Origin: a virus
Strand: one strand, 5' to 3'
DNA: 64,000 nucleotides
Virus record (IMG/VR): IMGVR_UViG_3300033143_001281
Location: 16,271-80,270 of that record
A program made the translations under genes and the position numbers. Below are positions 13,358 through 64,000 of the stretch, one piece after another. The notes under the pieces were generated by a model, which saw only the letters and a program-made list of their open reading frames with translations, was not told where the DNA came from and searched no databases. How positions within the stretch are numbered: the first letter of the stretch is position 1; each line of letters begins with the position of its first letter.

Positions 13358-16300
13358 ATGGCAATAAAATTCTTAAATAGTCAATCCATAACGGGTTCCC
13401 TTACAGTTAGTTCAATATCTAATGCGTCATCTGATACAGATAAGTTTTTAGTAAGTGATAATGGTATTATTAAATATAGAACTGGTGCTCAAGTTTTAGC
13501 AGATATAGGGGCTGGTACAGGTGATGGTTCTGTAACTTCTGTAGGTTTAGGATCATTAGATGGAATATCTGGTTCTATTGCTAATCAAACTACAACACCA
13601 TCAATAAGTCTTACAAATACTGATAAAGGATCAGCACAAAATATATTTAAAAATGTTGCGGTTTCAGGACAAGGAACAATTGTAGCTGATTCAAATAATG
13701 ATACTATAACGTTAGTAGGTACAGGTGTATCAATAACTACTAATGCTACAACTGATACAATTACATTTTCAGCATCTAATAATTATTTAACAAGTGCAAC
13801 ATTTAATACTTCAGACGGTGTATTAACACTTAATAGACAAGGTCTTTCTGCAGTAACTGTTGATCTTGATGGTAGATACGTTACATCTTCAGGTGTAACA
13901 TCTGTTGCAACAACTTTTCCTGTATTAGGAGGAACAATTACAAGTACAGGAACTATTAGTGTTAAAACACCTGAAAGTGGAGATTGGTGGAATGGCGGTG
14001 TACCTGTAGTAGGAACAGATGGTGTAATGGAAATTGGTAAGTATATTGATTTTCACGCTACTGATACTGCTACTTCAGATTTTGATGTAAGATTAACAGC
14101 TACAACTGGTAGTTTAGATGTATCAGGAGATATAGTAATAGGTGGTGGTGATATAACTCTAACTGGTACAGGAAGAATTCAAGGTGTGGATACTGTATCT
14201 GCAGGAACTGATGCAGCTAATAAAACTTATGTAGATAATGCTGTTAGTGGTTTTGTTGATGGTTCTGGTACAGCTAATGATGTAGCAATGTGGTCAGATA
14301 GTGATACATTAACAGATGCACCAATAGCTATTTCTGGAAATAATGCAACTTTTGCAGGGACAGTTTATATACCTTCAAAGTTAGAGCATACTGGAGATAG
14401 TGATACTTTTTTGAATTTTTCAGATAATACTATAACACTAACCGCAGGTAACTCTTCTACAATTTTTTCAGGTAATGGTAATGTAACTTTTCCAGGTGAT
14501 ATTTCTATTGCAGGTGGTGATATTACTTCTAATGGTATACAAATTATAAGTAATTCAGCTTCATCAAATCATTTAAAAATAGGTGATATTTCTGTTGATG
14601 ATTCTATACAACAAATCTATTTAGATACATGGGGTGCTACACAAATATATTTAGATGATAATGAAACTGATATTAAAAGTGATACAGTAAAATTTTCTGG
14701 TGGAATACAAACATCAGCACCAACAACTTATTTAGGTTTAACATCAACTAATTTATTAACAGAAAGAACTCTAGCACAAACTAAAACAGATTTAGGTATT
14801 ATTACTACTGTTCAAACTGCAAATCAAAATAGGATAGCAGTTAGTAACATTAATGGGCCGGTTGTATCAATAGATGCAAATACATCAGCAGTAAGCAGTT
14901 CTTCATCAAATTTAGCTACAGGTGCACAAATACAAACAGCTATAGATACAGCAATAACAGGAGTATTAAAATATCAAGGAACCTGGAATGCATCTTCAAA
15001 TTCACCAACATTAACAAGTGGATCAGGTACACCAGGTTATTATTACATTGTATCAACAGCAGGATCTACTAACCTAGATGGCATAACAGATTGGGCCGTA
15101 GGAGATTGGGCAGTATTTTCTGATTTAGCAACAGATGCATGGCAAAAAATAGATAACACTCAAGTTGGTAATGTAACAGGTTCTGGAGCAAGTGGTAAAG
15201 TTGCTTTTTGGAATAGTTCATCAAATATAACAAGTAATTCAGCATTTACTTATGATGGCAATAATTTAGCTGTTGGTGGCAGCATGACCTGGTCGGGTGG
15301 TAGTTCAACTGAATCTAATTTAGCTTATGATAGAAGTATTACTTCATTTGGTGATTCAGGTACGTCTACCGTGACGTTAACAATAGGTAGACAAGATGGT
15401 AATACTTTAAGCACATCATTTAACGTACCACAAGGAACTGTAACTGGTACTGGGTCTAGTGGAAGAGTAACATATTGGAATTCTTCAACAGGTGTAACAA
15501 GTAATTCAGCTTTCACATTTACAACTAATAATGGTGGTAGATTACAAGCAAATAATGTAATTCTTCCAAATGATGGAAATTATTTAGGTTTTGATACAAG
15601 TGGTAATGCTAGAACTGTAGCAACACTTGATTCTAGTAATAATATTGAAATATCAAACGCTGCTTTACAAAGCGGATCTAATACAAATATATATGGTGGT
15701 GATAATACTATATTTTATGTAGGAGGTTCAGAAGAATTAAGAATAAATAATGTAGGAGCTATTGGTATTGCTGGAACAAATTATGGTACATCAGGACAAG
15801 TTTTAACTTCTTCTGGTTCAGGATCAAATCCAACATGGTCAAATCCAAGTACAGGTAGCAACAATTATGTAAGCTCTGTTAGTTTTAATACTAGTGATGG
15901 TATACTTACTCTTAATAGAAATGGATTAAGTGCTCTAACTGTTGATTTAGATGGTAGATATAATCCTACTATAGGTACAGATACTGATATCAATACATCA
16001 GGATATAGTATTATTGATCAGATTAACATGACTGATGGAGTTATAACATCTACTGGTGCAAGAAACTTATTAAATGTACATATAGAAGATACTAGAGCAG
16101 CAGAAAAAACACCTAATGATTATCAGGACAAAGCATTATCACTTGACTTTACAGATGAATTTGGTTCACTAGGATCATGGTGGAGTGGTATTACTATGAA
16201 AGGTTGGGCTGATAATTATCAAGCATGGCAGCTTATTAGTGGTTCTGATACAAGTGCTGATAACGTATTATATTTTAGAACTGGTATTGGTACAACATGG

Positions 16301-21893: not shown

Positions 21894-23114
21894 ATGTCAA
21901 ATTATTTAAAACAAAGAATCATTGAAAGCCTCAAATGGAAAAAACATCCCTCATATTGTGCAGATAAATTAAATATTACAGAATCACAATATACCAAATT
22001 AAAGAAGCAAATATTACAAGAAAGAAAGAAGGATAAAAAGAAAGATAAATTTTTTAGTAAAGCTGCAGATAATGCTCAATTAGTTGAATCAATAGATTTA
22101 GAAAAAGGTGAAGGTAAAATATCTGGTACATTTGATCATGAACCTAAAAGTGCTGAAGAAATTATTAAACTACTTAAGATAGATACAAACAAATGGAAGC
22201 TATCACAATATTGGAATAAACAAATGGGTGATCACTGGAGAGTTTCTGCATTAATTAGTCAGATAAAAAATCCAGATGAAAAACATTTTGAAGAGCTTCT
22301 TAAAAATTGGAAACCTCAGCAATATAAATTACCAAAAACTAAACTAAATAAAAAAGGAGAAAAAGTTTGTGGTGTTATGTCATTACAAGATATTCATTTT
22401 GGTAAACAAGGAAATGAAACTATTGATAAAGATTTTGAGGAAACCATTATTAATTTATTAGAAAGAGCTACACCAGCACATAATATTGAAAAGATGTATT
22501 TTGTTGTAGGAGGTGATCTAATCAACATGGATACATTTGAGGGTACAACTACAAGTGGCACAGGATTAGATAATTGTATGACAGCTACAGATGCGTATAT
22601 ACAAGCATTTAATGCCATGCATTGGGCTATTGGTTATATAAAAGCTTTCTGTAAAGAACTAGTTATAGTTTATGTACCTGGTAATCATGATAGACTTTCT
22701 TCATTTCATTTAGTTCATGCTCTATCACAATCTATAAATAGTACTGAAATTACTTGGGATATTAAATATGAAGAAAGAAAAGTTCATGTGTGGTATAATA
22801 ATTTTAATGCATTTGAACATGGTGATAAAAGAAGTAAAAATAATCCATTAATATATGCATCCGAGTATCCTAAAGAATGGGGTCAGACAGTTAATAGAAC
22901 TTTATTCAAAGGTCATATTCATACAGACAGAAAAGTAGAATACATGACATCTAATGAGACAGCAGGTTTTATAGAAAAGACATTACCTAGTCTAGGTAAA
23001 ACAGATTATTACCACTATTCTAATAAGTATGTGGGTAACAGAAGAACAGGTAAATTAGAATTACAGCATCCAACTTTAGGTAATATAGCTGAATTTGCAC
23101 ATCAAGTATTATAA
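21894..23114 (+). CDS. Calcineurin-like metallophosphoesterase
   Basis: 406 aa. It shows the full set of metal-ligand motifs of the family in order: DIH (D166, H168), GGDLIN (D208), GNHD (N264, H265, D266), FEHGD (H309) and GHIHT (H341, H343). The first 60 residues look like a helix-turn-helix-type segment (YCADKLNITESQYTKLKKQI) with a following Lys-rich coil, so it may bind DNA. The substrate is not visible from sequence; phage members are often Mre11/SbcD-like nucleases or phosphodiesterases. It is unusual as an enzyme inside a structural block. It is flanked by terminators, so it is probably its own transcription unit. Confidence 0.85.
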   Translation: MSNYLKQRIIESLKWKKHPSYCADKLNITESQYTKLKKQILQERKKDKKKDKFFSKAADNAQLVESIDLEKGEGKISGTFDHEPKSAEEIIKLLKIDTNKWKLSQYWNKQMGDHWRVSALISQIKNPDEKHFEELLKNWKPQQYKLPKTKLNKKGEKVCGVMSLQDIHFGKQGNETIDKDFEETIINLLERATPAHNIEKMYFVVGGDLINMDTFEGTTTSGTGLDNCMTATDAYIQAFNAMHWAIGYIKAFCKELVIVYVPGNHDRLSSFHLVHALSQSINSTEITWDIKYEERKVHVWYNNFNAFEHGDKRSKNNPLIYASEYPKEWGQTVNRTLFKGHIHTDRKVEYMTSNETAGFIEKTLPSLGKTDYYHYSNKYVGNRRTGKLELQHPTLGNIAEFAHQVL

Positions 23115-42902: not shown

Positions 42903-45900
42903 ATGGAGGATCAGTCTAACAAACCTTTAGCAAACACCATAGCTAATAATCAAAGAACTTCTAGTGTTATTCCACCAGGAGAATTTAATTTTATACCTAT
43001 AGAGGAAATGTTTGAAACACCAGAAACAGATCTGGCAAACGTTATTGCAACAGATCCTGGTGCTATAGCTCAAGTAGATAGGTATAAAGCAGACATAGAT
43101 AAATATGGTATACCTGCAATGGCAAGTTTAGGTACGGTTAGTCCATCTTTAGCAACAGGTAAATATAATCCAGTTGCTCAACAAAATCCCTCACAAGCTG
43201 CTTATCAAGAAGTTAAAAATATATTAACTGCTAAAAAAGACGGTCCCGGTGGTCAACGTGTTGCACCCAGATATGCAAGTATTAGACAAAGCAATTTCTT
43301 AAGATACTATGAACATCCAGAATTTGCTGATTTAGGTTTTACACCATATGCAAATATGGAAGAGTTCTATAATGCTAATTCTACAATATGGGATGATATG
43401 AGTAGAATGAGTGGTCAATTTGCAAGTCTTGCTGGATCAGGTTTTAATAGTGTATATAGATCTTATGGTGATATGTTTGGTGACGGAAGTTATTTATCAC
43501 AACCAGATTTAGAATCAGCTTTTGAATTTGAAGATGCAATGGCCATTGGTAATTCTAGTAGAGGTGGTGCATTAGGTTTTACAAATAATCTTTTATTAAA
43601 TAGTGCATATACATTTGGTATTATTGGATCTATTGCAGTAGAAGAATTAATATTAGCAGGTGCTGCAGCAGCACAAGGTTTTCTTAATCCAGCATCTGAT
43701 GCATTATTAGCAAGTAGATCAGTTGCAAACGTCAAACGTGCAGGTGATGCTATTAGTGGTTTATTTGATATGAAAAAAATGGCAGATGCTACACGTAATG
43801 CAATGAAAACATTAAGTGAGATAGATACTGCTAGAGATTTTTGGGCTGCAACACAAGGTACAAGAAAAGTTTTAGGTCAAGCCTTTACACCTAATACAAT
43901 GTATGCTTTAAAGAATTTTAAGAGTACAAAAAATGCAACTCAAAATGCTGTTAACTTAGCAAAAATGAAAGCTGGTTTTGGTGGCTTTTATAGAGATTTT
44001 AGAGCTGTCAATTTAGCTTTAGCTGAAAGTAAACTAGAAGGTGGTATGGTTTACAATGAGCTTATAAGAGAAGGTGTGAATATGGCACAAGCCAAAAGTG
44101 GTGTAACTGTAACTCCTGAAGAATTTGCTAGTATACAATCAAAAGCATCAGAGGGTGCGTTTTATACAACTATGGCAAATGCACCTATTATATATGCCAG
44201 TAACTGGTTTGTTTTAGGAAATGCCATGGGCGGATTCAATAGAAGCCTGGGTAGAGTTTTTGGAGAAACTTTTGAAAAAGGATTGAATGGTAGACTTTTT
44301 AAAGGTAAAGGAGTAAAAGATGCAGCAACGGGAAAAGTAAAAAATGTTTTTAAAGATGCTGGTACAGGTCTAGGAGGCTGGTGGACAAAAGTCAGAGCGG
44401 GTGGAGTAAAGGGTAATACCGGCAGGGCATTAGCAGCTAGTGCTAGATATTTTGCTGCAAACATTGCAGAAGGTATACAAGAAGTTGCACAAGAAGCTGT
44501 TTCAGCAGGAACTAAAGGTTACTATACTGCCCTATTAGATGATCCGTTGGCAGGTGGTGTAGCATTAAGAAATCAATATATTGCTTCTGGAATGTCTAGC
44601 CAGTTTAGTGGTCAAGGAGCAGAAACTTTTTTATCTGGTTTTTTAATGGGTGGTATTGTACAAGGACCACAGAAATTATTTTTTCAAGGTATACCTGCTT
44701 TATATCAAAGAATAAGTGATCCTAAAGCTTATAAAGAGTATCAAGAAATTAAAGATAAGTATGTTAAAGATTTAGTCACTGTGCATAATGAAGCATGGAA
44801 CGCACAGGCTGATGATCCAGGATCAGTGTTTGATCCTCAAAAATTAAATTTCTTTTTTCAAAAACAGGCTGCTGCTGAAATGAAAAAGAATGTATTTAAT
44901 CAAGATAGATTTGGATTTCAAGATGAAAAAGATGGAGCTAAGTTTCATCAGATGTATACTATTTTTAGAACTGGCACATCAGAACTGTTTAAAAATCAAT
45001 TGAGAGATTATTTAAAAATGACTGATGCAGAATTAGCACAGGCGTTTCCATCTAGTAAAGCTGATGTAAAGAGTGGAAAGATAAGATCAAGATTAGAAAA
45101 ATTTATTACACAAATAGATAAGGCAGAAGCTGATTACATTAGAAGAAAAGATGATAATAAAAATCCTTTTGATCCAAGCCAGTTTAATAAAGAGACAGAA
45201 AAAAGACAGTATATACAAGAAGTTTTAAAAAGTCAAGCATGGGAGCATGCTAATTACTTGTATATGTTTACTGAAAATGGATTTCAACGTGCTCTAGAAA
45301 GAGCTAATAGTATATATACTGAATTAGCTAATGATCCTTTGTTTGATGGTATGGCTGCTAGTGATGTGACTGTATTATTAGATCCTGATTCTATAAGTAA
45401 TGAATTATTTTTACTATCAAAAGATATATTAGTTTTAGATGATTCAACAGAACAAGGTAAGAAAGATAAAAAAAGATTAGAAGGTAAATTAGAAAGACTA
45501 AAAGAGATTCAAAAAGTTTTATCTGATAAAAATCTACTTAACAATGATGGTACTTTTGATAAAAGAAAACTGGGTAGCAAACTTTTACCTGTGTTTGAAA
45601 AGTACATAAAGTATTTAGCAAATAGCAAAAATACATTTGCTGATAAGTCTAAAATAAAAGAAGCACTAAAAAAAATGATAGATTATGGTGCACTTAAAGG
45701 TAGAGCAAGAGTATATGATAAAGCAATTGAGTACTTAGCTAATCCAGAAAGATTTAATGAGATTGTTAATAGACAAATAGAAGTTAATAAAAATATATAT
45801 AGAAGTTTATCTTCTAATTTTGAAAAACAAATAAAAAAATATTTAAATGTTGCAGAGGCCAATGAGCTAATGAATCAACTTTTTAAAAGAGGTTATGTTG

Positions 45901-48900
45901 GTGATCCAGAAAATGTAAAAGGTTTTTTACAAACTGGAGATGTAAGATATTTAAATGCAATGACTTTTTACAACGAACAAGGTCAAATTGATAAAAAGGT
46001 TGATAAAGTTAAGTATGATGAAATACAAAGATTACTTGATGTCTATAGGAACAATCAAGAAAAAACTGAAGAGTCAGAACAATCTCCTAAAGAAGAAAAT
46101 CAAAAGGAGGATATTACACAGGCAAAAACAGCACAAGATCAAGTTTTAGATGATGCATCTATAGATGTTATATTACCTGAAACAAATAATACAAGAATGC
46201 TAAATGAGCTTTTAAAAAGACAGTATTCTAAGTATTCTGCTACACAAACAGTTTTAGGAGAAAACGTATTGACCTTTGAAGAGTGGAGAAATGCTGAGGG
46301 TGCAATATGGCAAAACACATTTAATGCTTTAAAAAAATTATGGGCATCTGGTAAACTACCAGTTTTAGATGCACAAGGTAATGCAGCTTACGTAAATGTA
46401 ACAGAAGATCAATTACTAAATGAACTAGGTTTTGATGCATGGTTAAAGTCTAGAGAAGTAAGAGAAAATGATTTAGTAAGTGAAATTTTACAATCAGCTA
46501 ATGTTTCTTTGGATGAAATAATTGCACCTACACAGAAACAAACAACTAAAGAAGATATAACTAAAGGAAAAAATAATGTTGATATATATAAAGAAGGTGC
46601 ACGTGTTAACGTTATTAAAGTTACAACTATAGATGAAAATGGAAAACCTGTTGCATTTTTTAAACTAGTAGATCCAAAGGGTAATGATTTATCAGCAGAC
46701 TTGCTTGGTTTGATAGATAGCAAATATGAAGGTACATATCCCACATCAAAAGAAGCTGTACAAGCACAAGAAGCTTTAGAAAAACAAGCACCCGATAATG
46801 CACCTTTTAAATTTGATAATGAAGAATTAAATCAAGGAATGCTTGTTTATAGAAATGGTAAGGAGTATGTTGTAATAAGTACACCTAGATCTATTTCAGG
46901 TGGTAAGTTGCGTTTAAGAATTAATGATGGAAGTAATAAGATAACAGTTATAAATAGGGGAGAGTTTGCCGGAAGATTTACTAAACAAGAAATCAAATAT
47001 GATTTTGATCCTACTAATGCAAGAGTAAATATTCAAAAAATAAATCAAATATATCCTCATGCTAATACTGTTGATGGTCAAAGAAATTATACTGAGGCTT
47101 CTAAAAGATTAGATTTGATATTACAAATCTTAGATGAAACAGATTTAAAAAATTTAAATTTAGTTATAGAAGCAGATCCGAAAGGTGGTGTAGATCAGGG
47201 TCAGTTTACTATGGAAGGTAAAAACCCAAATAAATATGTTAAAGTAAAAACATCTGCATATAGAATAGGTTTAGCAGCAGGAAGTCAAGAAACACAGAAA
47301 AGAATAAATGATGCATTGCTTAAGAATGGTATAAAACTTTCAGATAATCCAAATGGTATTTTTGCTTATATACCAAATGATGTATTTGAAATGATAGATG
47401 CAGAAGGAAATCCTGTAGAAAATCTTAGCACAATAACTCCTGATCTTGCTAATAGTACATTGTTTGTTAGCAAAGCACTTAGAGATAGTTTAACAAAACA
47501 AGAAATATTAAATTTAGCAAGAAGTAATTTTGCTCTTAATAAGTTAATTACTATTGAAGCAACAAATGCACTTGCTAAATCTGAAGGTGCAATAGCTTTT
47601 GTGCCTGTAGATAAATTAGATTTTAACTTTTCACTTTTAGTTTCTGGAGGTAATGTTGTTTATGATAATAGTTCAGTTAGATCTTTGTCTTCATTAAAAT
47701 ATCAACATGCTGATGAAAATGGCAACTATTTAATATATGATCTTAAAAAACTAAAAGGTGGTAAGGTAACAGAGAGCACTATTACTAATTTGGAAGGTAA
47801 AGAAGCTAGAGAACTAGAAGCTAAGGTTGAGGCTGGTCTTGAAGCGTCTGGACAAAATGGAATATTAGAAGCAGCTAGAGATAGATATATGGCTGCAGTT
47901 TTGTTACCTAATGGAGCATATAGATTAGTTCCTTTGAAAGCAGGTACTATGACAGCAGAAATGCGTGCTGAGTTAGCTGTAAAACTTATTGAGCGTGCAG
48001 AGTTAACAAAAAAAGAAAATTTAGACAAGAAGGGCAAAGAAAAAAGTTTATCATACAACTATAAATATAATGATAATCTAAGTGAAGGATTGTTTATTTC
48101 TACTATACCGGGTTATAAAATATCATTACAAGTAGATCCATGGGGAAAGATACAAATGCAGCTTTATGATAAAAATCTAGGTAAGCAAGTGGGTAAAACA
48201 ATTAGCGTTGAAGTTAAAGATATAGACTTGCTTAAACTTCAAGATGATCCTTCTCAAGCTGTAACACTAATGCAAGAGTTGGTTACCAAATTTAATAGTG
48301 ATGAAGATATTAAAGCAACCGAAGTAAAACTAACAAATAAAAATTTTAGAACAAGTTTTCCTGATGCAGCAACTGTTAATGATATAATTAATAAAACAAC
48401 TACTAATGTAGTAGGACAAGTCATAGATACTTTTCAAGCCCAAGTATTTTCTTCTTCGGATGTTATACAAGCAATGGTTGATTTAGAAATGACAACAGTA
48501 GCTTCTGAAAGTCAAACTGATCCTTTACTACAAGAGCAAGAAGAAATACAAGATGTTTTGTCTTTAGAGTCTTATAGTGAAGAAGAGTTTAAAGATTTAG
48601 AAAATAATGGTTTTGAAGATATATCAAGAAAACAATTAGAAGTAATAGTAGATAAACTCACACAACCTGTACCAGCAGCATTAACTGAAAGAGAGAAAGA
48701 AGTCTATTCTTATAGGTCTGATATGATTGATTCAATGGAAGCAATCAAAAGAGAAAAAGAAAATCTTAATCAGGATAGCTCAGACCAGCCTATTAAATCT
48801 AGCACGGATGGAAGAAGTGCTGGTGTAAAACAAATAATATCTATCTATGTTGGAGGACAATTATTTTTTAATATAAATGCTTCAGGCTTTGAAATAGCAG

Positions 48901-51900
48901 AAGCTTTTAGTGCTAATGGGGTAACGTTACAGGAAGCTAAAGCCGCAATACCTGGTTTAGATGGAAAATTGAAAGCTTGGTTTCAAAGAGGTATTGATTA
49001 TTTAGAAGGTGATATCAGTGAGCTTGAAAGTCTAAAACAAAAACTTGAAGCACTAAAATCTGAATTAGTAAAAGATATATCTCCAAAAAATAGACGTAAA
49101 GTTCTTAGAGAAAATGAAGAATATCAAAAACTTTTAAAACAAGTTAAAGATATTGAACAAAAAGGTGCTAACAAGATACTTTCACCAGAGCAGTTATCTC
49201 AATCTGATGAAACAGATATCAATGTATTTACTAAATGGGCAGAAGAAAATCTACCAAGTTATATCAATATAGCTGATATAAATACTCTTGGTAACAACAT
49301 GAAAGCTGGTGGTGTACGTGTTGGTGCTTTTGTTTTAGCACTAGATCAACTAGCATCTGGACTAAACCTACAAGGTACAATATATACATCAGCTACTAGT
49401 CCTTATAAATATCATGAAGCTTTTCATGGTGTGTTTAGAATGTTATTAACTGATGTAGAAATTAATCAGTATATAAATATTGCTAGAAAAGAGGTGAGAG
49501 CAAAACTTAGATCTGAGGGTAAAAGTTTTGAAGCTGAACTAAAGAAATTTAGAAATTCTGCTAATACATATACTAATATGTCAGAATCAGAATTAATAAG
49601 AGAATATTATGAAGAGTATTTAGCTGATGAGTTTGAAAAATTTAAGACAGATCCAACTAATACTAAAACAGATTCTTCAGTTAAGTCTTTATTTACTAGA
49701 ATATTGGACTGGATTAAATCTATATTTAGTGTTAAATCACAGAATGAACTTCAAACATTATTTCAAAATATTGATTCTGGTAAATTTAGAAATGCTGAAA
49801 TTCAAAGAAATCAATTTACTATTTACCCGGAAAACGGGTATATATTAGAAGCAAATGCTATTATACCTTATGCATCAGAGCAAGTAGATAATAAGGTTGG
49901 GTATATTTATTTAGACAGTGATATAGCAGATCCTATGTTACGAAACATAAGTGCTATGTATTTATCTAGAACTTCTGAGCTTAAAGAAGCATATAATCCC
50001 GGAAAAGTTTTAGATGAGTTAATAGATGATTTTGCATGGTTATATAGTCCAGAAAATCCTATAAATGCAGAAAGAAGTGAAATGCAGTTAGATAAGCTTA
50101 GACAAATTGAAAACGCTTTTGATAATTACTCACAGGAAATAAAGGATCAAGTTGTTAAGTTTTTAACTAGTATTAGTGATAATGTATCTGGAGAAAATCT
50201 TGACGCAGCAGAATTTGAAGACTCAAAAGAGTTAAGAAAAACAACAGAGTATGACAAAGATGCTTCTATGATAGGAGGATTTAGATCTTTAAGTTCTTCT
50301 ATAAGACAGTATATTGCTACAACAACATTAGAAGAAACGGATTACTTTGGGAATGTTGAACTTACAGATGGAGAACCATTAATTATAGCTGTTGATTTTA
50401 TTAATGCATACAATGGATTATTAAAAGCAGTCAAGAGTAAATCAGATCCAAAAGCTATATTACAAAGCATGTATTTCTTTGGTCAGGATAATGCTCATGC
50501 AGGTGCTGTTGTAAGAAGAATATTAAAGGATGTTGGTATAACTGAAGAGCAGTTGCTTTCAGAGAAAACTCTTCCAAAACAAATAGCTAATCCATTATTA
50601 TTTCAATCTATATTAAAAGGTTTTGAAAACTTTAGAGTAGATTATTTATTTAATGAGCGTGATGATAAGGGTAATGTTATTATATACTCTGCAGCTGAAA
50701 GAGATGATAGAAATTCTCAGTTGGATAATTGGAAACAAGCATATATATACAAAAGAAAACAACTTGTATCTAATAGAGATAGAAAAAGAAGATTGAATAT
50801 ATTATTAAAAGATATATCAGATGATATAAGAATAACTAATAAATCTATTACAAACAAAAAGCTCAAAGAAGATGCACAAAGATATTCTCAAGAGTTATTT
50901 GATTTAGTTGGTATAAAATTGAGCCCTTTATATTTACAATTTAATATGGTCTATAACAGATCTAAGTTAACTGTTAAACAAAAAGCATTATTAAATTTTG
51001 ATAAGGATGCCAACCCATTGACTGAAGATCTTGATGGTAAGGCTTATAAGGTTAATTCAATAGACATGCTTAATCTTTTAACTAAAGCTGATAGTGATAT
51101 ATTTGAGAGAGGTGATGAAGGTATGGATAGTAGGTTAAAAGCAATGGCTATTGGTAATAGCTCTTTTGATGAGACTGTTGGTGCAACTGTATTTAAAAAC
51201 CCAAATGGCGATTTAGTATATGCACATCAGATGCCTACATATCACTTGAGAAAAGTTGCTGAACTTAATGATCCAAGTAAGTTAGAAGCTCTTATTACTT
51301 CTGATCCTTATTTGGCTAATAACTTTTTGTTAAACAGCAGCGCTTTTAAAAATTTATCAAAAGAACGCAAACTAAAAGTATTAAGAATTGCAGGTACTAA
51401 AATTTCTGATTTAATAAAAGCAAATCAAGAACAAGATGAAAGTTTAGGTAAGACTAAAGATAGTTCATCTTATGGTGATTATACACCACAAGAGTTTACT
51501 CTTAATCTAATTAATAATTATACAGCTTTATTAAATAATAGAAGTTACAAGGTTACTTCTGTTGATTCATTAGATAAAAATGGTAATGAGGTATTAACAG
51601 CATTAGCTCCAGTTTTAATTAGAGTTATGGAAGCATCTAATACAGGAGATATGATAAATCTACCTGTTATTAAGACAGTTGATTTTAATGGTAAAGAATC
51701 TAAAATAACTGAAGAGGTTGTAGATATTTACATTGATCAAATAAGATCTGAGTTTCAAAGGATTGTTAGAGAAAGCAATGAAAAAACTAAGACAAAAGAA
51801 CTTATAGAAGGTTATAATACACCGGGTGGTAGAGCATTTCAGTTTTTTAATAGTGGTTTGTTAATTGGATCACCAGCTTTAAAAAAGCAATTGGTTGAAG

Positions 51901-52175
51901 CAGCAATAAATGCTGGTAAGACAAATACAAAATTAACTTTAGATGAAGCAATAGAGGGATTAGTTATACAAGTAGCTCCAACACAACAAACTAGTGAGGT
52001 AATAAATATATATGCAGGAACAAATGAAAATGCTGAGTTAAGTAATTTTGCAAAAAGACCTTTTGCTAGTGAGCTTATAGATGGGCAGTCTAAATATGGT
52101 AATTTTATTTTTAATACTGTACTCCAAGTTATTTTAATGAAGAAGGATTGCTTACAAAAGAAGGGGAAAAACTGA
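42903..52175 (+). CDS. Giant virion protein, N-terminal part: zincin protease and first half of a NADAR domain
   Basis: 3090 codons in this frame, starting at ATG 42903 (atATGGAGGATC), 8 bases after the previous stop. Residues 100-170 (APRYASIRQSNFLRYYEHPE) resemble the start of large crAss-like proteins. A hydrophobic stretch lies at 225-265 (AYTFGIIGSIAVEELILAGA), possibly membrane-active. A Glu/Lys linker lies near 1055-1080. A gluzincin-type site has H2171-E-A-F-H2175 and a Glu-rich helix about 65 residues later (EEYLADEF), the usual third ligand. Residues 3035-3075 (INIYAGTNENAELSNFAKRP) begin a NADAR domain. The frame then breaks at about 52115-52135 and the protein very likely continues in the next frame, giving about 4.75 thousand residues in total. 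It is probably packaged and ejected. Confidence 0.7.
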   Translation: MEDQSNKPLANTIANNQRTSSVIPPGEFNFIPIEEMFETPETDLANVIATDPGAIAQVDRYKADIDKYGIPAMASLGTVSPSLATGKYNPVAQQNPSQAAYQEVKNILTAKKDGPGGQRVAPRYASIRQSNFLRYYEHPEFADLGFTPYANMEEFYNANSTIWDDMSRMSGQFASLAGSGFNSVYRSYGDMFGDGSYLSQPDLESAFEFEDAMAIGNSSRGGALGFTNNLLLNSAYTFGIIGSIAVEELILAGAAAAQGFLNPASDALLASRSVANVKRAGDAISGLFDMKKMADATRNAMKTLSEIDTARDFWAATQGTRKVLGQAFTPNTMYALKNFKSTKNATQNAVNLAKMKAGFGGFYRDFRAVNLALAESKLEGGMVYNELIREGVNMAQAKSGVTVTPEEFASIQSKASEGAFYTTMANAPIIYASNWFVLGNAMGGFNRSLGRVFGETFEKGLNGRLFKGKGVKDAATGKVKNVFKDAGTGLGGWWTKVRAGGVKGNTGRALAASARYFAANIAEGIQEVAQEAVSAGTKGYYTALLDDPLAGGVALRNQYIASGMSSQFSGQGAETFLSGFLMGGIVQGPQKLFFQGIPALYQRISDPKAYKEYQEIKDKYVKDLVTVHNEAWNAQADDPGSVFDPQKLNFFFQKQAAAEMKKNVFNQDRFGFQDEKDGAKFHQMYTIFRTGTSELFKNQLRDYLKMTDAELAQAFPSSKADVKSGKIRSRLEKFITQIDKAEADYIRRKDDNKNPFDPSQFNKETEKRQYIQEVLKSQAWEHANYLYMFTENGFQRALERANSIYTELANDPLFDGMAASDVTVLLDPDSISNELFLLSKDILVLDDSTEQGKKDKKRLEGKLERLKEIQKVLSDKNLLNNDGTFDKRKLGSKLLPVFEKYIKYLANSKNTFADKSKIKEALKKMIDYGALKGRARVYDKAIEYLANPERFNEIVNRQIEVNKNIYRSLSSNFEKQIKKYLNVAEANELMNQLFKRGYVGDPENVKGFLQTGDVRYLNAMTFYNEQGQIDKKVDKVKYDEIQRLLDVYRNNQEKTEESEQSPKEENQKEDITQAKTAQDQVLDDASIDVILPETNNTRMLNELLKRQYSKYSATQTVLGENVLTFEEWRNAEGAIWQNTFNALKKLWASGKLPVLDAQGNAAYVNVTEDQLLNELGFDAWLKSREVRENDLVSEILQSANVSLDEIIAPTQKQTTKEDITKGKNNVDIYKEGARVNVIKVTTIDENGKPVAFFKLVDPKGNDLSADLLGLIDSKYEGTYPTSKEAVQAQEALEKQAPDNAPFKFDNEELNQGMLVYRNGKEYVVISTPRSISGGKLRLRINDGSNKITVINRGEFAGRFTKQEIKYDFDPTNARVNIQKINQIYPHANTVDGQRNYTEASKRLDLILQILDETDLKNLNLVIEADPKGGVDQGQFTMEGKNPNKYVKVKTSAYRIGLAAGSQETQKRINDALLKNGIKLSDNPNGIFAYIPNDVFEMIDAEGNPVENLSTITPDLANSTLFVSKALRDSLTKQEILNLARSNFALNKLITIEATNALAKSEGAIAFVPVDKLDFNFSLLVSGGNVVYDNSSVRSLSSLKYQHADENGNYLIYDLKKLKGGKVTESTITNLEGKEARELEAKVEAGLEASGQNGILEAARDRYMAAVLLPNGAYRLVPLKAGTMTAEMRAELAVKLIERAELTKKENLDKKGKEKSLSYNYKYNDNLSEGLFISTIPGYKISLQVDPWGKIQMQLYDKNLGKQVGKTISVEVKDIDLLKLQDDPSQAVTLMQELVTKFNSDEDIKATEVKLTNKNFRTSFPDAATVNDIINKTTTNVVGQVIDTFQAQVFSSSDVIQAMVDLEMTTVASESQTDPLLQEQEEIQDVLSLESYSEEEFKDLENNGFEDISRKQLEVIVDKLTQPVPAALTEREKEVYSYRSDMIDSMEAIKREKENLNQDSSDQPIKSSTDGRSAGVKQIISIYVGGQLFFNINASGFEIAEAFSANGVTLQEAKAAIPGLDGKLKAWFQRGIDYLEGDISELESLKQKLEALKSELVKDISPKNRRKVLRENEEYQKLLKQVKDIEQKGANKILSPEQLSQSDETDINVFTKWAEENLPSYINIADINTLGNNMKAGGVRVGAFVLALDQLASGLNLQGTIYTSATSPYKYHEAFHGVFRMLLTDVEINQYINIARKEVRAKLRSEGKSFEAELKKFRNSANTYTNMSESELIREYYEEYLADEFEKFKTDPTNTKTDSSVKSLFTRILDWIKSIFSVKSQNELQTLFQNIDSGKFRNAEIQRNQFTIYPENGYILEANAIIPYASEQVDNKVGYIYLDSDIADPMLRNISAMYLSRTSELKEAYNPGKVLDELIDDFAWLYSPENPINAERSEMQLDKLRQIENAFDNYSQEIKDQVVKFLTSISDNVSGENLDAAEFEDSKELRKTTEYDKDASMIGGFRSLSSSIRQYIATTTLEETDYFGNVELTDGEPLIIAVDFINAYNGLLKAVKSKSDPKAILQSMYFFGQDNAHAGAVVRRILKDVGITEEQLLSEKTLPKQIANPLLFQSILKGFENFRVDYLFNERDDKGNVIIYSAAERDDRNSQLDNWKQAYIYKRKQLVSNRDRKRRLNILLKDISDDIRITNKSITNKKLKEDAQRYSQELFDLVGIKLSPLYLQFNMVYNRSKLTVKQKALLNFDKDANPLTEDLDGKAYKVNSIDMLNLLTKADSDIFERGDEGMDSRLKAMAIGNSSFDETVGATVFKNPNGDLVYAHQMPTYHLRKVAELNDPSKLEALITSDPYLANNFLLNSSAFKNLSKERKLKVLRIAGTKISDLIKANQEQDESLGKTKDSSSYGDYTPQEFTLNLINNYTALLNNRSYKVTSVDSLDKNGNEVLTALAPVLIRVMEASNTGDMINLPVIKTVDFNGKESKITEEVVDIYIDQIRSEFQRIVRESNEKTKTKELIEGYNTPGGRAFQFFNSGLLIGSPALKKQLVEAAINAGKTNTKLTLDEAIEGLVIQVAPTQQTSEVINIYAGTNENAELSNFAKRPFASELIDGQSKYGNFIFNTVLQVILMKKDCLQKKGKN

Positions 52176-57169: not shown

Positions 57170-60100
57170 ATGGCACGTTGTCCTAATAAAAATACAGCAG
57201 AGTATAAAGCTCTTAAAGAAGTTTTTAAAACAGAAATTATTACAAATAATGTAATTAATAACTGGCAAGATCTTAATAATGTAGATACATTTCCTAGTGT
57301 TATACAAGCACAAGATATGTTAAGGAACCAAAGACTTGCAATGAACTTAAAAAAAAGACAATTTGGTGAATCTTTATTAAATAATTTAAGAAGAGAAAGA
57401 ATAGGTCACAGCTACAAAAACAAATTTTATATTAATAATTCTAATCCTAATACAGGTTTATTTGATGAGTTATTTTTAAGTAAAAACATTAAGAGGCTTA
57501 ATAGATATCTTGATGTTAATAATATTCCTTCAAATAGAATTACATTAGAAAGAACAGCTAAAACATATAGATTAACTGTTAATGATGATTTGTTTACAAC
57601 AAACGATATGCTTGAGTCTTCTAGATCTTGGGATACACCAAGAGCAAGAAGTATTGTAAAACATCTTAGGAGAATGTTTCCTCAAGTAAATATAGAGATG
57701 CTTTCTGTTGCAGAAGCAAAAGAGATGTATAAGTCAATGCCTGAATGGAAAAAGTCAAACACCCCTTTTGATAAAGTTAATTCTTTTTATGTTGATGGAG
57801 TTGCTTATTTAATTAAAGGAAGAGTAACAGATGAAATTGCTATTGAAGAAATGTTACATCCATTTGTTGATGCTATAAAAGCAGATAATGAAGATTTGTT
57901 TAACTCATTACTTAAAGAAGCAAATAGTAATTTCCCAGAGATGGTACAAGAAATTGCTGATTCATATAATTTAGATAGAAGGTTTAGTCAACTTGATAGA
58001 GATTTAGAGATTGTTACTCAAGCTTTATCAAGACATTTTAATAATCAATATGAAAAAGAAGGTGGACCAAGCCGAGGATTTTTAAATAAAATAAAAGAGG
58101 TCATTCAATGGTTTGCAAATATCATTAAAAATTTTAATGAGTATTTAACAGGAAGACCATTAGACGTATCATCCATTAATGATACAGCAACATTAACTGA
58201 TATTGCAAAACTTTTAAACACAGAAGGTATACAATTTAAACTTGAGTCACGAGTTAATGGCAAGATTAGATATAGTTTATCTCCTGAAAAAAAGAAAGCG
58301 CTTGACATACAGCGTAATTCTGCAAATGAAATTCAGAAGCAAGTATTAAATAAACTGTTTAATGTTGTAGAGTCAAGCAAAGAAGAGTTTGATTCATTAT
58401 CAGCAAATCTAAATGATACTAGTAATCCTAGCATTGTTATTTTAAATGAAAAGGATCATACATATTATAATATTACTACAGGAGAAGTTTACACTTCCGT
58501 GACTACTGCTATTAAAGGGAGATTGAAAAATCAAGAAGATGTTCAACTTAATTTGGATGTTGGTAATGATGTAGATGCAATTCTTGATTCAGTTATTGCT
58601 GGTGAATCTCCTGCAGAAGTACAATCAAAACTCAGTATTTTGACACCAGAAATGGCTGAGCAAGTATATGCACAGTTAGAAACTACATTAGATATGATTA
58701 TGCCTGAAGGTTCTATAGCATTATCACAGGTTGTTTTATTTGATGAGAACACTAGTTTAGCAGGAACAGCAGACTTACTTATTATTGATAGAAATGGTTT
58801 TATTAGAATTGTTGATTTAAAAACTAGTAAGAACTCAATTAAATCTAGATATGTAACTGATAAAATTACTGGTAGAAGTGAATTTAAAAAGTATGATAAG
58901 AGTTGGGATATTGTACCATCAGATCAAGATGTCATAAAAGATTTACAAGACAATAACGTTAAAAAAGAAAACGGTAAAAAATATTCTAAAGAACAAATTG
59001 AAAATAGAAAGAAAGAGTTATCTCCTTTATTGTATGAAAAAGCAGGTGTAGAAAAACTATCTACTAGAGAACAACACAACCTTCAAGTAAATTTATATAG
59101 AAGGATGGTTGAGAATATGGGCTATAAAGTCTTTCAAGGAGAAGGGGCTTCCACCACTATTCATTTTGTTGCTGATATAACAGGAAAAGGTAAAGATCAA
59201 AAATTTAATGGTAATATTAAACCTGACGGTAGAATAGATCATCCGCCTTCAGAAAATTTAATTTATGTAAATAAACTAATACCTGAAAACTTAGATAACA
59301 TTGAAAAGGATAAACTTGAAAGTGCAGTTAAAAATGCTGAAGATCAAATACTAGATGCAGAACAATTAGCTGTAGACTCTGAGCAAGAAGCAGATACCGT
59401 TGATGCACAACAGTATCCAGAGTACAATACTATTTTAGCAGCACTTGAAAACTATAGATTAGGTTTAGTTGATAGAAGAAAAGCACTAGATCAAGTTAAA
59501 AAAAGTATTTACAGTGATAGAACAAAAAAAGAGCAACGTGAGCAAATTGCAAGTCATCTAGCATATATTGGTATTGCAATAAGTGAAGGACCTATAGCAC
59601 AATCAAAAGCATATTCTTCTTTATTACGTGATGCATTAAAGGAAATTAGAAAGTTTTCTGCATATGTACAAGATCCTTCAAACTTTGGTAAGACAGAGTA
59701 CATAACATATGTCTTAAATTTTGATAGGTTTGCAAAAACATTTGTTGGATTATACTCTATTGAGCAGTCTAATGAATTAAATGCAACTCAACGTTCTTTA
59801 GTTTTATCTTTACAGTTAGAACTTAATAAGCTAACTGGTGGTGACAAAAAAGGAGAAGGTATAATTAATCAAGCAATTTCTGATTATGTAAAAGAAACTA
59901 TCCGAACAAGATCTAGTAATGAATTTGGAGTAGATGGTAGTGCATTTACTAAAGAAGATCTTGATATGGTTATGGAAATGGCAAGAGATATAAACGGTAC
60001 AGAGCTACAAACTAGAGATTTAGATACTTCACCGGATGTTCTTTTAGGAGTTATGGCAAAAATATACAAGGCCAAAAAACAAGAACTATTGGACAGAGTT

Positions 60101-62947
60101 GCTGAAACTAAAGCAAGAGTTACAGTAGCTGCAGAAAAACTATTAAAACTTTCACCAACAAACGATAAAGAAAAGATTTATGACTTTATGCATGAGTCAG
60201 ATGGTAGATATGTAAAACCAATAGGTCAACAGTACTATGATCTTGAAGAATCTTTGGGTGCTGTATTAACAGATAATGATGGCCAGCCATATTATTACAG
60301 AGACATATCAAATTTAGATAATGCATCACAAGAAGATATAGACTATAATATAGATTTAGCAAATAAAAAAAGAGCATACTCTGATTTTATGGCGGGTGAA
60401 ATGAAAAATAGTGCTAATGAACTTGTAGATGGTGAATACCATAGATATACTGATGAATTTAAACAGGCTAGAAATAAGTTTGAATATTGGTCACCTGGTT
60501 CTGATAAAAGCCGTAGAGGCAGATGGAATAGAAAAGCTGGTAATAGTGATAAAGACTATGCTTTATATGAAGCTAAGTATTATGATATGAAACCTGTTAC
60601 TTTTGCAGAAAGGAATGCCCTAGGTGATGCCACAGGAGTTATAGTTAAAGATCAGATTTTCAGAGCAGTTAAGCCTGAATTTAGAGAGGTCCGACTTACT
60701 ACAAGAAGTGGTCAGGACATGGCAAGTGCTAAATACAGATCTATCATGAACCCTACAAATGCATTAGAACAAGCACAAAAAGAGTTTTATGAAATGTATA
60801 TAGATGTTTATGAAAACTACCTATTAAAGAAATTACCTGTAGGTGAATTAACTAAGATGGTTGGTAAAACACCACTAGTTAAAAATAATTTAATAGATGA
60901 TTTAAAAAATAAACCTACTATAGTATCTAAGTTATATGCAAAAACAATTGGTAGTAGTGCATGGAACATGTTCAAGAAAACATCATCTCAGAGAGGTGTT
61001 GTAACAGATGAAAATGGAAACTTAATTAGTTCATTGCCTATATACTATACGGGAAGACCAAGAATAGATGGAGAAATAGAAGTTGTAGATAAGCAGATAA
61101 CAGCACTACAAGATAAAAAAAGAAAGGGTTTAATTGGTCCAGATGCATATGAAAAGGAAATAGCCATATTAAATGGTAAGATGGAAAGACTAAGATCACA
61201 ACCTAGTACGGGTCAAATAAGCAGAGATTTAGGAAGTAGCTTATTAAAGTTTGCTGCAATGGCTGAAAACTATGAAGTGATGGGCACAATTGAAGATACT
61301 CTTAATGCATTTTTAAATGTTATTGAGAGAAGAGAATATCAACCAGCTGATACAAGTATTGAAACAGGAACATTTATAGACAATGCATTTAAGAAAAGAG
61401 GTATTATAAAAGGTAAAGATTCTAATGTATTAAAAAGAGCTAAGAAATGGATGTCTATGATATACTATCAAGATGATATGATGACAAAAGGTGCTGCTGA
61501 TAAAATAGCAGATGGTCTTATTCAGTTGTCTTCTTTATCTTATGTTGCTTTTAACCCATTTGGTAACTTCAATAACTATGTTATAGGTAGAATTAATAAC
61601 AATATTGAAATGCTAGGTGGTAGATTTTATAGCAGAAAAGCATATCAAAGAGCTACTTATGAATTTAATAAACGTGCTATACCAGATATAGTTCAAAGAA
61701 CATCATATGTTGTAGGAGACCTTGGTGATGTTTTGACTTTGGGATTAGTACCTGGTTTACAAAAGTCTACTTATGATCCACAGAAACCTAATAGTAAGTA
61801 TGAAGCATTTGTAGATTTATTTAGAATGATGGATAGTATGTCTGATATACGTGAACAATCCTCATCTACATCAGAAGGTAAAAGTTGGTTTGAAAAAGCT
61901 ACTGAATGGGGATATGTATTACAAGATGCAGCAGAATATAATGTACAAACAAAAGTTGGTATGGCTTTACTAATGGATACATTTATAAAGAATACAGAAA
62001 CTAATGAGGTTATGTCTTTATATGATGCATTTGATTATGATGCAAATACACATAAAAATGTATTGAAAGATGGCTTTACTATGATTGTAGATAAGAATGG
62101 TAATAACTTGCGTGAATACTCTGATGAATTTAGATATGAACTTAGAAATCAAATACGTGAGGTCAACAAACAAATTCATGGTAACTATGCAAAAGAAGAT
62201 AGAGTTGTAATGCAAAGTACTACTATTGGTAAGTTAGCATTTCAGTTTCATAAGTGGGTGGCTCCAGCTATAAGAGCAAGATATCAAAGAGAATACTTTG
62301 ACCAAAACCTTGGTTGGATGGAAGGCCGTTATATATCTGCTTGGAAGTTTTTAGCATATACAAAAGAACAAATAGTAAAAGGAAACATGGAGTTTTCTAA
62401 GTATAATAAAGGTTTTTTAGAGTCATACGGTTACACAGGCAAAGGTGGTAATATAGATCAAAGAGCAACTAATAAACTTTTTGGGTTTTATAGAACAATG
62501 GGTGAAATAGGAATTATATTATCTACTCTTGTTTTAAGTGAAATATTAGGATCTTTACTTGCAGGTGAAGATGATGATAGTGATACAATGAAGAGATTTA
62601 AAAATGTTGCAAGATATCAAGCTGATAGATCTTTTAAAGAACTTATAATGTTCTTACCAGTACCAGGAGGATTTGAACAACAATATCAAATGTTTAAATC
62701 ACCAATTGCTGCAACAAGAACTTTAGGTGAATTAGGTGAAGCACTTTCTCTCACAATAAGAACTCCTATGGCATATTTGTATTATTCTGATGATGAGTTC
62801 AGATCAAATTCAAGTTTTGTTTACCAACAAAAACCAAGAAAAGGAGAACTTAAAGTTTATAAAAACTGGAAAGATGTGTTACCTATTATTTATTCTATAC
62901 AAAAATGGGATGCATATCTGAAATTGAATAATTTCTATATCAAATAA
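57170..62947 (+). CDS. Giant internal/ejected protein with RecB-like (PD-(D/E)XK) nuclease domain
   Basis: 1925 aa, starting 3 bases after the polymerase stop. Residues 215-250 contain EIAIEEMLHPFVDAI, a zincin-like helix whose first metal His is Glu (E226-E-M-L-H230), so it is probably inactive. Residues 425-560 look like a PD-(D/E)XK nuclease of the RecB/Cas4 type: DHTYYNITTGEVYTSVTT, then GTADLL with D535, then IVDLKTSK with D549 and K551. The C-terminal half is helical, with VNKQIHGNYAKEDRVVMQ and LAFQFHKWVAPAIRARY, blocks I know from large crAss-like proteins. One hydrophobic helix lies at about 1780-1800 (IGIILSTLVLSEILGSLLAG) before an acidic turn. The likely role is ejection into the host with processing or protection of DNA. 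Confidence 0.65.
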   Translation: MARCPNKNTAEYKALKEVFKTEIITNNVINNWQDLNNVDTFPSVIQAQDMLRNQRLAMNLKKRQFGESLLNNLRRERIGHSYKNKFYINNSNPNTGLFDELFLSKNIKRLNRYLDVNNIPSNRITLERTAKTYRLTVNDDLFTTNDMLESSRSWDTPRARSIVKHLRRMFPQVNIEMLSVAEAKEMYKSMPEWKKSNTPFDKVNSFYVDGVAYLIKGRVTDEIAIEEMLHPFVDAIKADNEDLFNSLLKEANSNFPEMVQEIADSYNLDRRFSQLDRDLEIVTQALSRHFNNQYEKEGGPSRGFLNKIKEVIQWFANIIKNFNEYLTGRPLDVSSINDTATLTDIAKLLNTEGIQFKLESRVNGKIRYSLSPEKKKALDIQRNSANEIQKQVLNKLFNVVESSKEEFDSLSANLNDTSNPSIVILNEKDHTYYNITTGEVYTSVTTAIKGRLKNQEDVQLNLDVGNDVDAILDSVIAGESPAEVQSKLSILTPEMAEQVYAQLETTLDMIMPEGSIALSQVVLFDENTSLAGTADLLIIDRNGFIRIVDLKTSKNSIKSRYVTDKITGRSEFKKYDKSWDIVPSDQDVIKDLQDNNVKKENGKKYSKEQIENRKKELSPLLYEKAGVEKLSTREQHNLQVNLYRRMVENMGYKVFQGEGASTTIHFVADITGKGKDQKFNGNIKPDGRIDHPPSENLIYVNKLIPENLDNIEKDKLESAVKNAEDQILDAEQLAVDSEQEADTVDAQQYPEYNTILAALENYRLGLVDRRKALDQVKKSIYSDRTKKEQREQIASHLAYIGIAISEGPIAQSKAYSSLLRDALKEIRKFSAYVQDPSNFGKTEYITYVLNFDRFAKTFVGLYSIEQSNELNATQRSLVLSLQLELNKLTGGDKKGEGIINQAISDYVKETIRTRSSNEFGVDGSAFTKEDLDMVMEMARDINGTELQTRDLDTSPDVLLGVMAKIYKAKKQELLDRVAETKARVTVAAEKLLKLSPTNDKEKIYDFMHESDGRYVKPIGQQYYDLEESLGAVLTDNDGQPYYYRDISNLDNASQEDIDYNIDLANKKRAYSDFMAGEMKNSANELVDGEYHRYTDEFKQARNKFEYWSPGSDKSRRGRWNRKAGNSDKDYALYEAKYYDMKPVTFAERNALGDATGVIVKDQIFRAVKPEFREVRLTTRSGQDMASAKYRSIMNPTNALEQAQKEFYEMYIDVYENYLLKKLPVGELTKMVGKTPLVKNNLIDDLKNKPTIVSKLYAKTIGSSAWNMFKKTSSQRGVVTDENGNLISSLPIYYTGRPRIDGEIEVVDKQITALQDKKRKGLIGPDAYEKEIAILNGKMERLRSQPSTGQISRDLGSSLLKFAAMAENYEVMGTIEDTLNAFLNVIERREYQPADTSIETGTFIDNAFKKRGIIKGKDSNVLKRAKKWMSMIYYQDDMMTKGAADKIADGLIQLSSLSYVAFNPFGNFNNYVIGRINNNIEMLGGRFYSRKAYQRATYEFNKRAIPDIVQRTSYVVGDLGDVLTLGLVPGLQKSTYDPQKPNSKYEAFVDLFRMMDSMSDIREQSSSTSEGKSWFEKATEWGYVLQDAAEYNVQTKVGMALLMDTFIKNTETNEVMSLYDAFDYDANTHKNVLKDGFTMIVDKNGNNLREYSDEFRYELRNQIREVNKQIHGNYAKEDRVVMQSTTIGKLAFQFHKWVAPAIRARYQREYFDQNLGWMEGRYISAWKFLAYTKEQIVKGNMEFSKYNKGFLESYGYTGKGGNIDQRATNKLFGFYRTMGEIGIILSTLVLSEILGSLLAGEDDDSDTMKRFKNVARYQADRSFKELIMFLPVPGGFEQQYQMFKSPIAATRTLGELGEALSLTIRTPMAYLYYSDDEFRSNSSFVYQQKPRKGELKVYKNWKDVLPIIYSIQKWDAYLKLNNFYIK

Positions 62948-62992
62948 GACAAATTTGCAGGTTTAATTCTTTCTTGTTTAAATAAGAATAGT

Positions 62993-63005
62993 TATATTAT
63001 AGTAT
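62993..63005 (+). promoter_or_regulatory. Putative late promoter motif before the last gene
   Basis: TATATTAT (62993-63000), then four bases and TAAAC in place of GTAAC. It lies about 45 bases before the ATG at 63043, in the only gap after the giant genes. Confidence 0.4.
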
Positions 63006-63042
63006 AAACCAACAGATACAGACTATAATTTAAATTTTAAAT

Positions 63043-64000
63043 ATGAGAAGGTATTTAATCCTGTTGGTTTTTTTCTTAGTTTCTTACACATCTAGCGCTC
63101 AAGGTTTCTTTGATTCTCTTTACAAAGATTTTTTAAAGTTTGGTACTATTTATGGAGCAGGTGATATAAGCAATTCCATAGAAGCAGCTGAGCCAACTTA
63201 TTTTGTTAGAACTAATCCTAATGGTAGTATATATGATATCCCTGTTGTGGAAGATAATACTCCTGATTACCCATTTGATTATAGAATAGGTTTTGGTATA
63301 CGTAAACTAGCTAGGTTTAACTATGAAAGAAAACCAAGAAACTTTTATGATGGTACTGAAACACAACTTGCTTTTACTGCACCAACATCAGCATTTCAAG
63401 GTTTAGAGTATCAACTCCATTATGAAAAAGAAAGATGGAGGGGTGAGTACTTTGATAATAATAGATACTTTGTAAAGCATACTGGTAAATATCATATAGT
63501 TAAAGCTGAGTCAAGAGAAGTAGGTAAAATTAATTTAAAGTATCAATCAGCAGAAGCAAGGTTGAGATTACCTATAGGTAAAAAGTTCTCTTTATCTGGA
63601 GGTGCAATCTTCAGAACTCATGACCGTGCTTATGGATATAATCCAATTGAGATCTGGTTAAATGAAACTGATGAAGATGGTTTTGCAGCTAATCCTTGGT
63701 ACACTTTAGGTTTTATATATGGATATGATGATATATTCTATACTGAAGAAGATGAAAATGGTAATGAAATAAATGATTGGTATTGGGTAGATCCAGATGG
63801 GAACAGAGTTGCAGATACAGATTTAGAATTTAGAGAAACAATCTTTAGAGATTTAATGAATAGATACAATAGAGAAGCATGGTCAACTCTAGATAGATTT
63901 GGTGAGATTGCTCCTATAGTAGGATTTGATTACTATCATTATAAAAACAATTTCTGGTTGCATGCCTATGCTAACTGGATTCTTCCTTATCATAAGTATA
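63043..64000 (+). CDS. Secreted, possibly outer-membrane, protein (3' end outside window)
   Basis: At least 319 codons from ATG 63043, running off the window end. The first 20 residues (MRRYLILLVFFLVSYTSSAQ) form a clear signal peptide: two Arg, a hydrophobic core and a cleavage region SSAQ-G like those of Bacteroidota secreted proteins. The rest alternates polar and aromatic residues in strand-like runs (YRIGFGIRKLARFNYERKPR, LSGGAIFRTHDRAYGY, WLHAYANWILPYHKY), suggesting a beta-barrel or surface protein. I do not recognise the family. Such a protein would be exported by the host and could alter its envelope, for example in superinfection exclusion or lysis, but that is inference. Confidence 0.6.
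   Translation, partial: MRRYLILLVFFLVSYTSSAQGFFDSLYKDFLKFGTIYGAGDISNSIEAAEPTYFVRTNPNGSIYDIPVVEDNTPDYPFDYRIGFGIRKLARFNYERKPRNFYDGTETQLAFTAPTSAFQGLEYQLHYEKERWRGEYFDNNRYFVKHTGKYHIVKAESREVGKINLKYQSAEARLRLPIGKKFSLSGGAIFRTHDRAYGYNPIEIWLNETDEDGFAANPWYTLGFIYGYDDIFYTEEDENGNEINDWYWVDPDGNRVADTDLEFRETIFRDLMNRYNREAWSTLDRFGEIAPIVGFDYYHYKNNFWLHAYANWILPYHKY

Follow-up and report, generated by a model that had tools for sequence, protein, structure and literature searches.

The window, a stretch of 64,000 nucleotides (positions 16,271 to 80,270 of the virus record IMGVR_UViG_3300033143_001281), stops at the end of its 80,270-base record, and the open reading frame on the plus strand at 63043-64000 is still open there. 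This frame holds the first 319 codons of a gene for a putative outer-membrane beta-barrel protein, hereafter the barrel, an assignment based on the open frame, a full-length relative and an AlphaFold model of a barrel. The last ~74 codons lie past the contig end, and the 3' part was read from relatives only. The full-length relative (L003:10001-11179) encodes 393 aa and is 95% identical to the window copy, while the upstream neighbour, a plus-strand gene for a 1925-aa protein at 57170-62947, is only 52% identical between the same two phages; it forms the left border of the lysis slot described below and lies outside the module to which the barrel belongs. Within the L003 homologue of this neighbour, residues 418-632 form an exonuclease-like stretch (phrog_298, 1.2e-11).

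Ahead of the barrel start, 11 relatives share a CAAATTTRCAG-like box followed, ~32 bases on, by a TATATTATNNTATAAACC-like box. The corresponding plus-strand boxes in the window are CAAATTTGCAG at 62950-62960, which has no other exact match in the window, and TATATTATAGTATAAACCA at 62993-63011, ~30 bases ahead of the start codon. Without mismatch, the whole element occurs once in the window, in agreement with the proposal that the gene has a promoter-like motif of its own, and the element at 62950-63011 may act as a promoter.

The portal protein of the window matches that of Leptolyngbya phage Lbo-JY46 at 32% and, with 22-27% identity, those of crAss-like phages and of phages of the Cellulophaga phi4:1/phi17:2 type. 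The barrel is also carried by, among others, phages of ~164 kb, a DnaB helicase from this context being 55% identical to its counterpart in Flavobacterium phage immuto, and by a third group with a protein of 2,300-3,100 aa upstream of the barrel. These relatives, together with the type of signal peptide, point to Bacteroidota as hosts of this marine virus. Elsewhere in the window, a relative of DNA repair exonucleases lies within the structural block (21894-23114; phrog_704, 1.7e-40), and a 3090-aa open reading frame (42903-52175) has no significant PHROG match.

Distribution of the barrel family

Scans of IMG/VR for relatives of the barrel matched from 143 to more than 573 stretches. No match was found among Pfam, PHROG and NCBIfam models or PDB sequences, nor by tblastn in the cultured phages of the collection, nor by profile in Flavobacterium phage immuto and Cellulophaga phage phi17:2. 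By sequence, the barrel is a member of a large family of uncultured phages that carries no annotation. The searches for the full gene and its homologues recovered the complete gene in relatives and, with one genome per species scanned, homologues in phage-like contigs only. A recent gift from a host was rejected as an origin: that scan returned only three contigs (L082, L083 and L084), in all of which a giant phage gene (cluster 6) adjoins the barrel and which look like phage sequences that binning has placed in MAGs. Of the three, L082 and L083 were assigned to a Woesearchaeota archaeon MAG, probably by mis-binning. Between the window and L003, the dN/dS of the barrel is 0.065, a value indicating that purifying selection on it is strong.

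Export signal and predicted fold

The original prediction placed a Bacteroidota export signal at the N-terminus, and the relatives agree. Judged from their N-termini and the conservation of the cut site, the signal peptide (MRRYLILLVFFLVSYTSSAQ) is encoded at 63043-63102 on the plus strand. A hydrophobic N-terminus is found in 75/76 full-length relatives, nearly all with a cut of the [A/S/G]Q type, and the cut-site Gln is retained in 197 of the 204 distinct barrel proteins. The signal is of type I, with no lipobox, and Cys is rare in the mature proteins. The letters of the signal change fast (pN 0.18, compared with 0.03 over the whole barrel gene), so that its character is conserved and not its letters.

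The barrel-like body proposed for the protein is likewise supported. An AlphaFold model built with 88 homologues (pLDDT 81.8, pTM 0.73) contains 12 barrel strands, an even number as is expected of a barrel, and polarity alternates along its strands (z = 3.8 relative to shuffled residues, a value reached by 9/365 circular shifts). The C-termini of full-length relatives, such as GLNYTFR, are of the outer-membrane type; the penultimate residue is Phe in 117/204 and Leu in 51/204, which corresponds to a BAM-type C-terminal signal, seen in relatives only since the window copy is cut. Foldseek matches in the PDB are almost all outer-membrane barrels of a general porin-like kind, although weak and unspecific (TM-scores 0.2-0.45), so the model supports the barrel class and no particular porin. 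The closest fold is the viral protein model A0A516LKJ4 from BFVD (TM 0.62/0.70, E 3.4e-24, 22% identity), which carries no name and is probably a distant homologue.

The longest predicted extracellular loop comprises residues 194-285 (63622-63897, plus strand), as assigned from the model strands and conservation, its sidedness following from the signal peptide and the even strand number. The idea that the loops are the most conserved part was rejected, as they are about as conserved as the strands; selection on them is purifying, and signs of diversification are absent.

A trio of predicted envelope genes

The barrel belongs to a set of three envelope genes that almost always occur together, reported here as a new module. 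Its other members are TMCC, a protein of ~95 aa with one N-terminal membrane helix followed by a charged coiled-coil tail, and an exported protein with a thioredoxin fold. In a limited search of the open-licence literature, no prior description of this trio was found. Clustering of the neighbours at 147 barrel loci placed TMCC in 129 and the thioredoxin-fold protein in 134, the former count being low in part because the gene was missed at some loci by the choice of open reading frames. A separate scan that started from the thioredoxin gene alone recovered both the barrel and TMCC in all 72 readable loci, the other eight being cut by the contig start with no room upstream. One clade has the permuted order TMCC-thioredoxin-barrel (44 loci in a pooled set that includes duplicates); the linkage thus outlasts re-ordering, which argues for a joint function of the trio. 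The thioredoxin fold was recognized by Pfam Thioredoxin (E 1.8e-5) and by profile matches to solved thioredoxins, down to 4e-11, and a CxxC redox site was present in none of 113 sequences.

Two further genes were observed in L003, the closest relative. Between the barrel and TMCC lies a gene for a two-helix membrane protein of 134 aa (L003:11184-11585), a possible holin with no family match above chance, and L003:12301-12924 encodes an exported protein of 208 aa with a C-terminus (YDRQGNLI...GLYLI...) that by eye looks similar to type IX secretion sorting domains.

Lysis-gene context

In several phage contexts the module adjoins holin and/or endolysin genes. The genes found beside the trio encode Phage_holin_4_1, Peptidase_M15_3, Amidase_2 with PG_binding_1 and a relative of the phrog_33083 endolysin, as well as two-helix holin-like proteins and u-spanin-like lipoproteins. 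In the 164-kb phages the trio stands between a gene for a small two-helix protein and those for an amidase and a holin (L214), and in other lineages the barrel follows ribonucleotide reductase genes, near holin and endolysin genes and apart from structural genes.

The corresponding position in sister phages of the window, a slot between the 1925-aa gene and ribonucleotide reductase genes, is occupied by a holin and a homologue of TMCC, termed TMCC-prime, in L247, L248, L249, L252, L254 and L260, and by a holin alone in L255. The promoter-like element, including its second box, also precedes TMCC-prime in L248 and L260, which indicates that it belongs to the slot and not to the barrel. A homologue of TMCC-prime occurs in pelagiphage HTVC027P, one gene away from a peptidase M15. 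The view that the barrel is a core gene of the lineage was rejected, as only 3 of the 18 loci retrieved with the upstream gene as anchor carry it; sister phages that lack it hold a holin in the same slot, and the barrel is accessory.

In the window's own lineage, the endolysin (amidase) gene lies far from the barrel (G000:10642), and 2.3 kb before it, to the left of the window, G000:7861-8040 (the same gene as L348:7861-8040) encodes a u-spanin-like lipoprotein of 59 aa with a C-terminal membrane helix. A u-spanin-like lipoprotein is found on the same strand in 11 fetched barrel loci. Another is encoded at L349:6263, likewise near the amidase gene; the lipoproteins at L348 and L349 measure 59-72 aa, and homologues lie beside the trio in L006-L008, L061 and L171-L173. 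Replacement of the o-spanin by the barrel as a general rule, an idea initially grounded on the lack of a same-strand lipoprotein within 6 kb at 58 of 88 loci, was withdrawn in view of the gene at L348:7861.

Exchange between phage lineages

On the barrel tree, at least 10 changes among three named contexts are needed. Nucleotide identity rises along the barrel gene to 99-100% at the cut end. The right ends of the window, L002 and L004 fall on one and the same base, and the last 114 bases (63886-64000) are exact between the window and L004, although identity in the upstream gene is only about one half. In the simplest reading, a recombination junction probably lies in the barrel gene and also broke the assembly, which would have forked there. 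Overall, distances of the three genes are correlated (r 0.35-0.49), exceeding permutations made within contexts; between different contexts, a mirror-tree test gave no correlation. Joint transfer of an intact trio is therefore not supported, and parts of the module may also be exchanged separately.

Possible functions of the module

The original prediction was that the protein may alter the host surface, through superinfection exclusion or lysis. The results support export and a barrel fold, and of these two candidate roles the gene context favours lysis over exclusion. The reading preferred here, which we hold tentatively and at somewhat less than an even chance, is a late, lysis-associated envelope module that assists or gates the breakdown of the outer membrane. 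It builds on the export signal, the near-obligate linkage, the lysis-gene context, the swapping of the module and purifying selection, and would entail the predicted barrel topology, a physical complex, late expression and a role in outer-membrane rupture. The exported barrel would sit in the outer membrane, TMCC in the inner membrane with its coiled coil in the periplasm, and the thioredoxin-fold protein, presumably redox-dead, in the periplasm. Parts in all three compartments, kept together with holin and endolysin genes, suggest an envelope-spanning late complex, which would assist or gate outer-membrane rupture when holin and endolysin act. Since a candidate u-spanin is encoded at another place in the phage of the window, the module is not a simple spanin substitute and would work alongside the u-spanin-like lipoprotein without replacing it. 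A more specific version, in which marine Bacteroidota phages possess a lysis module of three parts, so far undescribed, that opens or destabilises the outer membrane at lysis and is exchanged between unrelated lineages, is doubtful. Against a lysis role stand the distance of the lineage's own endolysin gene from the barrel, the u-spanin-like lipoprotein already present and the sister phages that lyse without the barrel, making it accessory, as exclusion genes often are. The missing correlation of gene distances between contexts also weighs against this reading.

The main rival, though unlikely, is superinfection exclusion, in which the barrel would occupy or mask a surface receptor or block DNA entry, with the periplasmic partners as anchors. 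Phage-encoded outer-membrane proteins that alter the surface are known, such as lambda Lom and the PA-2 Lc porin, and the predicted surface location would suit this role, as would the accessory presence among close sisters and the exchange between lineages, both typical of exclusion genes. Exclusion fits less well with the lysis-slot position in several contexts, with the strict coupling to TMCC, whose homologues accompany holin or endolysin genes where the barrel is absent, and with loops under purifying selection that give no sign of diversification. PADLOC gave no credible match to a defence system. That the Foldseek matches are general porin-like barrels would suit a general porin or an envelope-maintenance protein keeping the infected cell productive through uptake or repair, but these matches are weak, no homologue was found outside phage-like contigs, and neither the coupling to TMCC nor the lysis slot would be accounted for, which makes such a role improbable. 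Three parts that span the envelope and adjoin holins could also form a sensor of lysis timing, in which the barrel would respond to an external cue, a second phage for example, and the thioredoxin-like protein and TMCC would relay this cue to the holin, a logic comparable to T4 lysis inhibition; no T4 rI/rIII-like sequence was seen, however, and this analogy seems quite improbable. The slimmest chance is given to a virion component or injected protein: in the window lineage the barrel directly follows large structural-type genes, but practically all relatives have a cleavable signal peptide, other lineages place the gene after ribonucleotide reductase genes and beside holin and endolysin genes, off the structural genes, and neither a tail nor any other virion family was matched.

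Relation to known systems and significance

Among the closest known systems are two-component spanins such as lambda Rz/Rz1, a lysis-locus pair of an inner-membrane protein with a periplasm-facing coiled coil, comparable to TMCC, and an outer-membrane protein. TMCC has the i-spanin layout, with a single N-terminal membrane helix and a predicted periplasmic coiled coil, yet matches no spanin family. The outer-membrane part here is a predicted beta-barrel with a type I signal peptide cut at [A/S/G]Q, not a small lipoprotein with the lipobox Cys of an o-spanin; a thioredoxin-fold partner is added, and no sequence match to spanins was found. The unimolecular spanins of Bacteroidota phages share the lysis locus with the barrel in some phages but are small lipoproteins in their own right, with a membrane helix at the C-terminus, and the barrel is not among them. 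Proteins of the Lom/Ail type, the PA-2 porin and porin-like proteins in viral structure libraries are also phage-encoded outer-membrane barrels with a signal peptide. The barrel differs from these proteins in lacking a Pfam or PHROG match to those families and in its near-obligate partnership with two genes and its lysis-slot position; moreover, Lom/Ail is an 8-strand OmpX-like barrel, while ~12 strands are predicted here.

In a survey of spanins, Bacteroides phage B124-14 and Croceibacter phages P2559S/Y were listed as spanin-less (PMC6139136), a later survey reported Bacteroidetes phages with unimolecular spanins only (PMC12596118), and the annotation of two Cellulophaga phages from the North Sea includes possible unimolecular spanins (PMC8776804). 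Little is known of how Bacteroidota phages get through the outer membrane during lysis. The module, found repeatedly at lysis loci of different lineages among hundreds of uncultured marine phage contigs, supplies three specific candidate genes. If exclusion were true, the trio would constitute a novel type of surface-remodelling complex encoded by phages. Either role would provide candidate functions for protein families that carry no annotation today.
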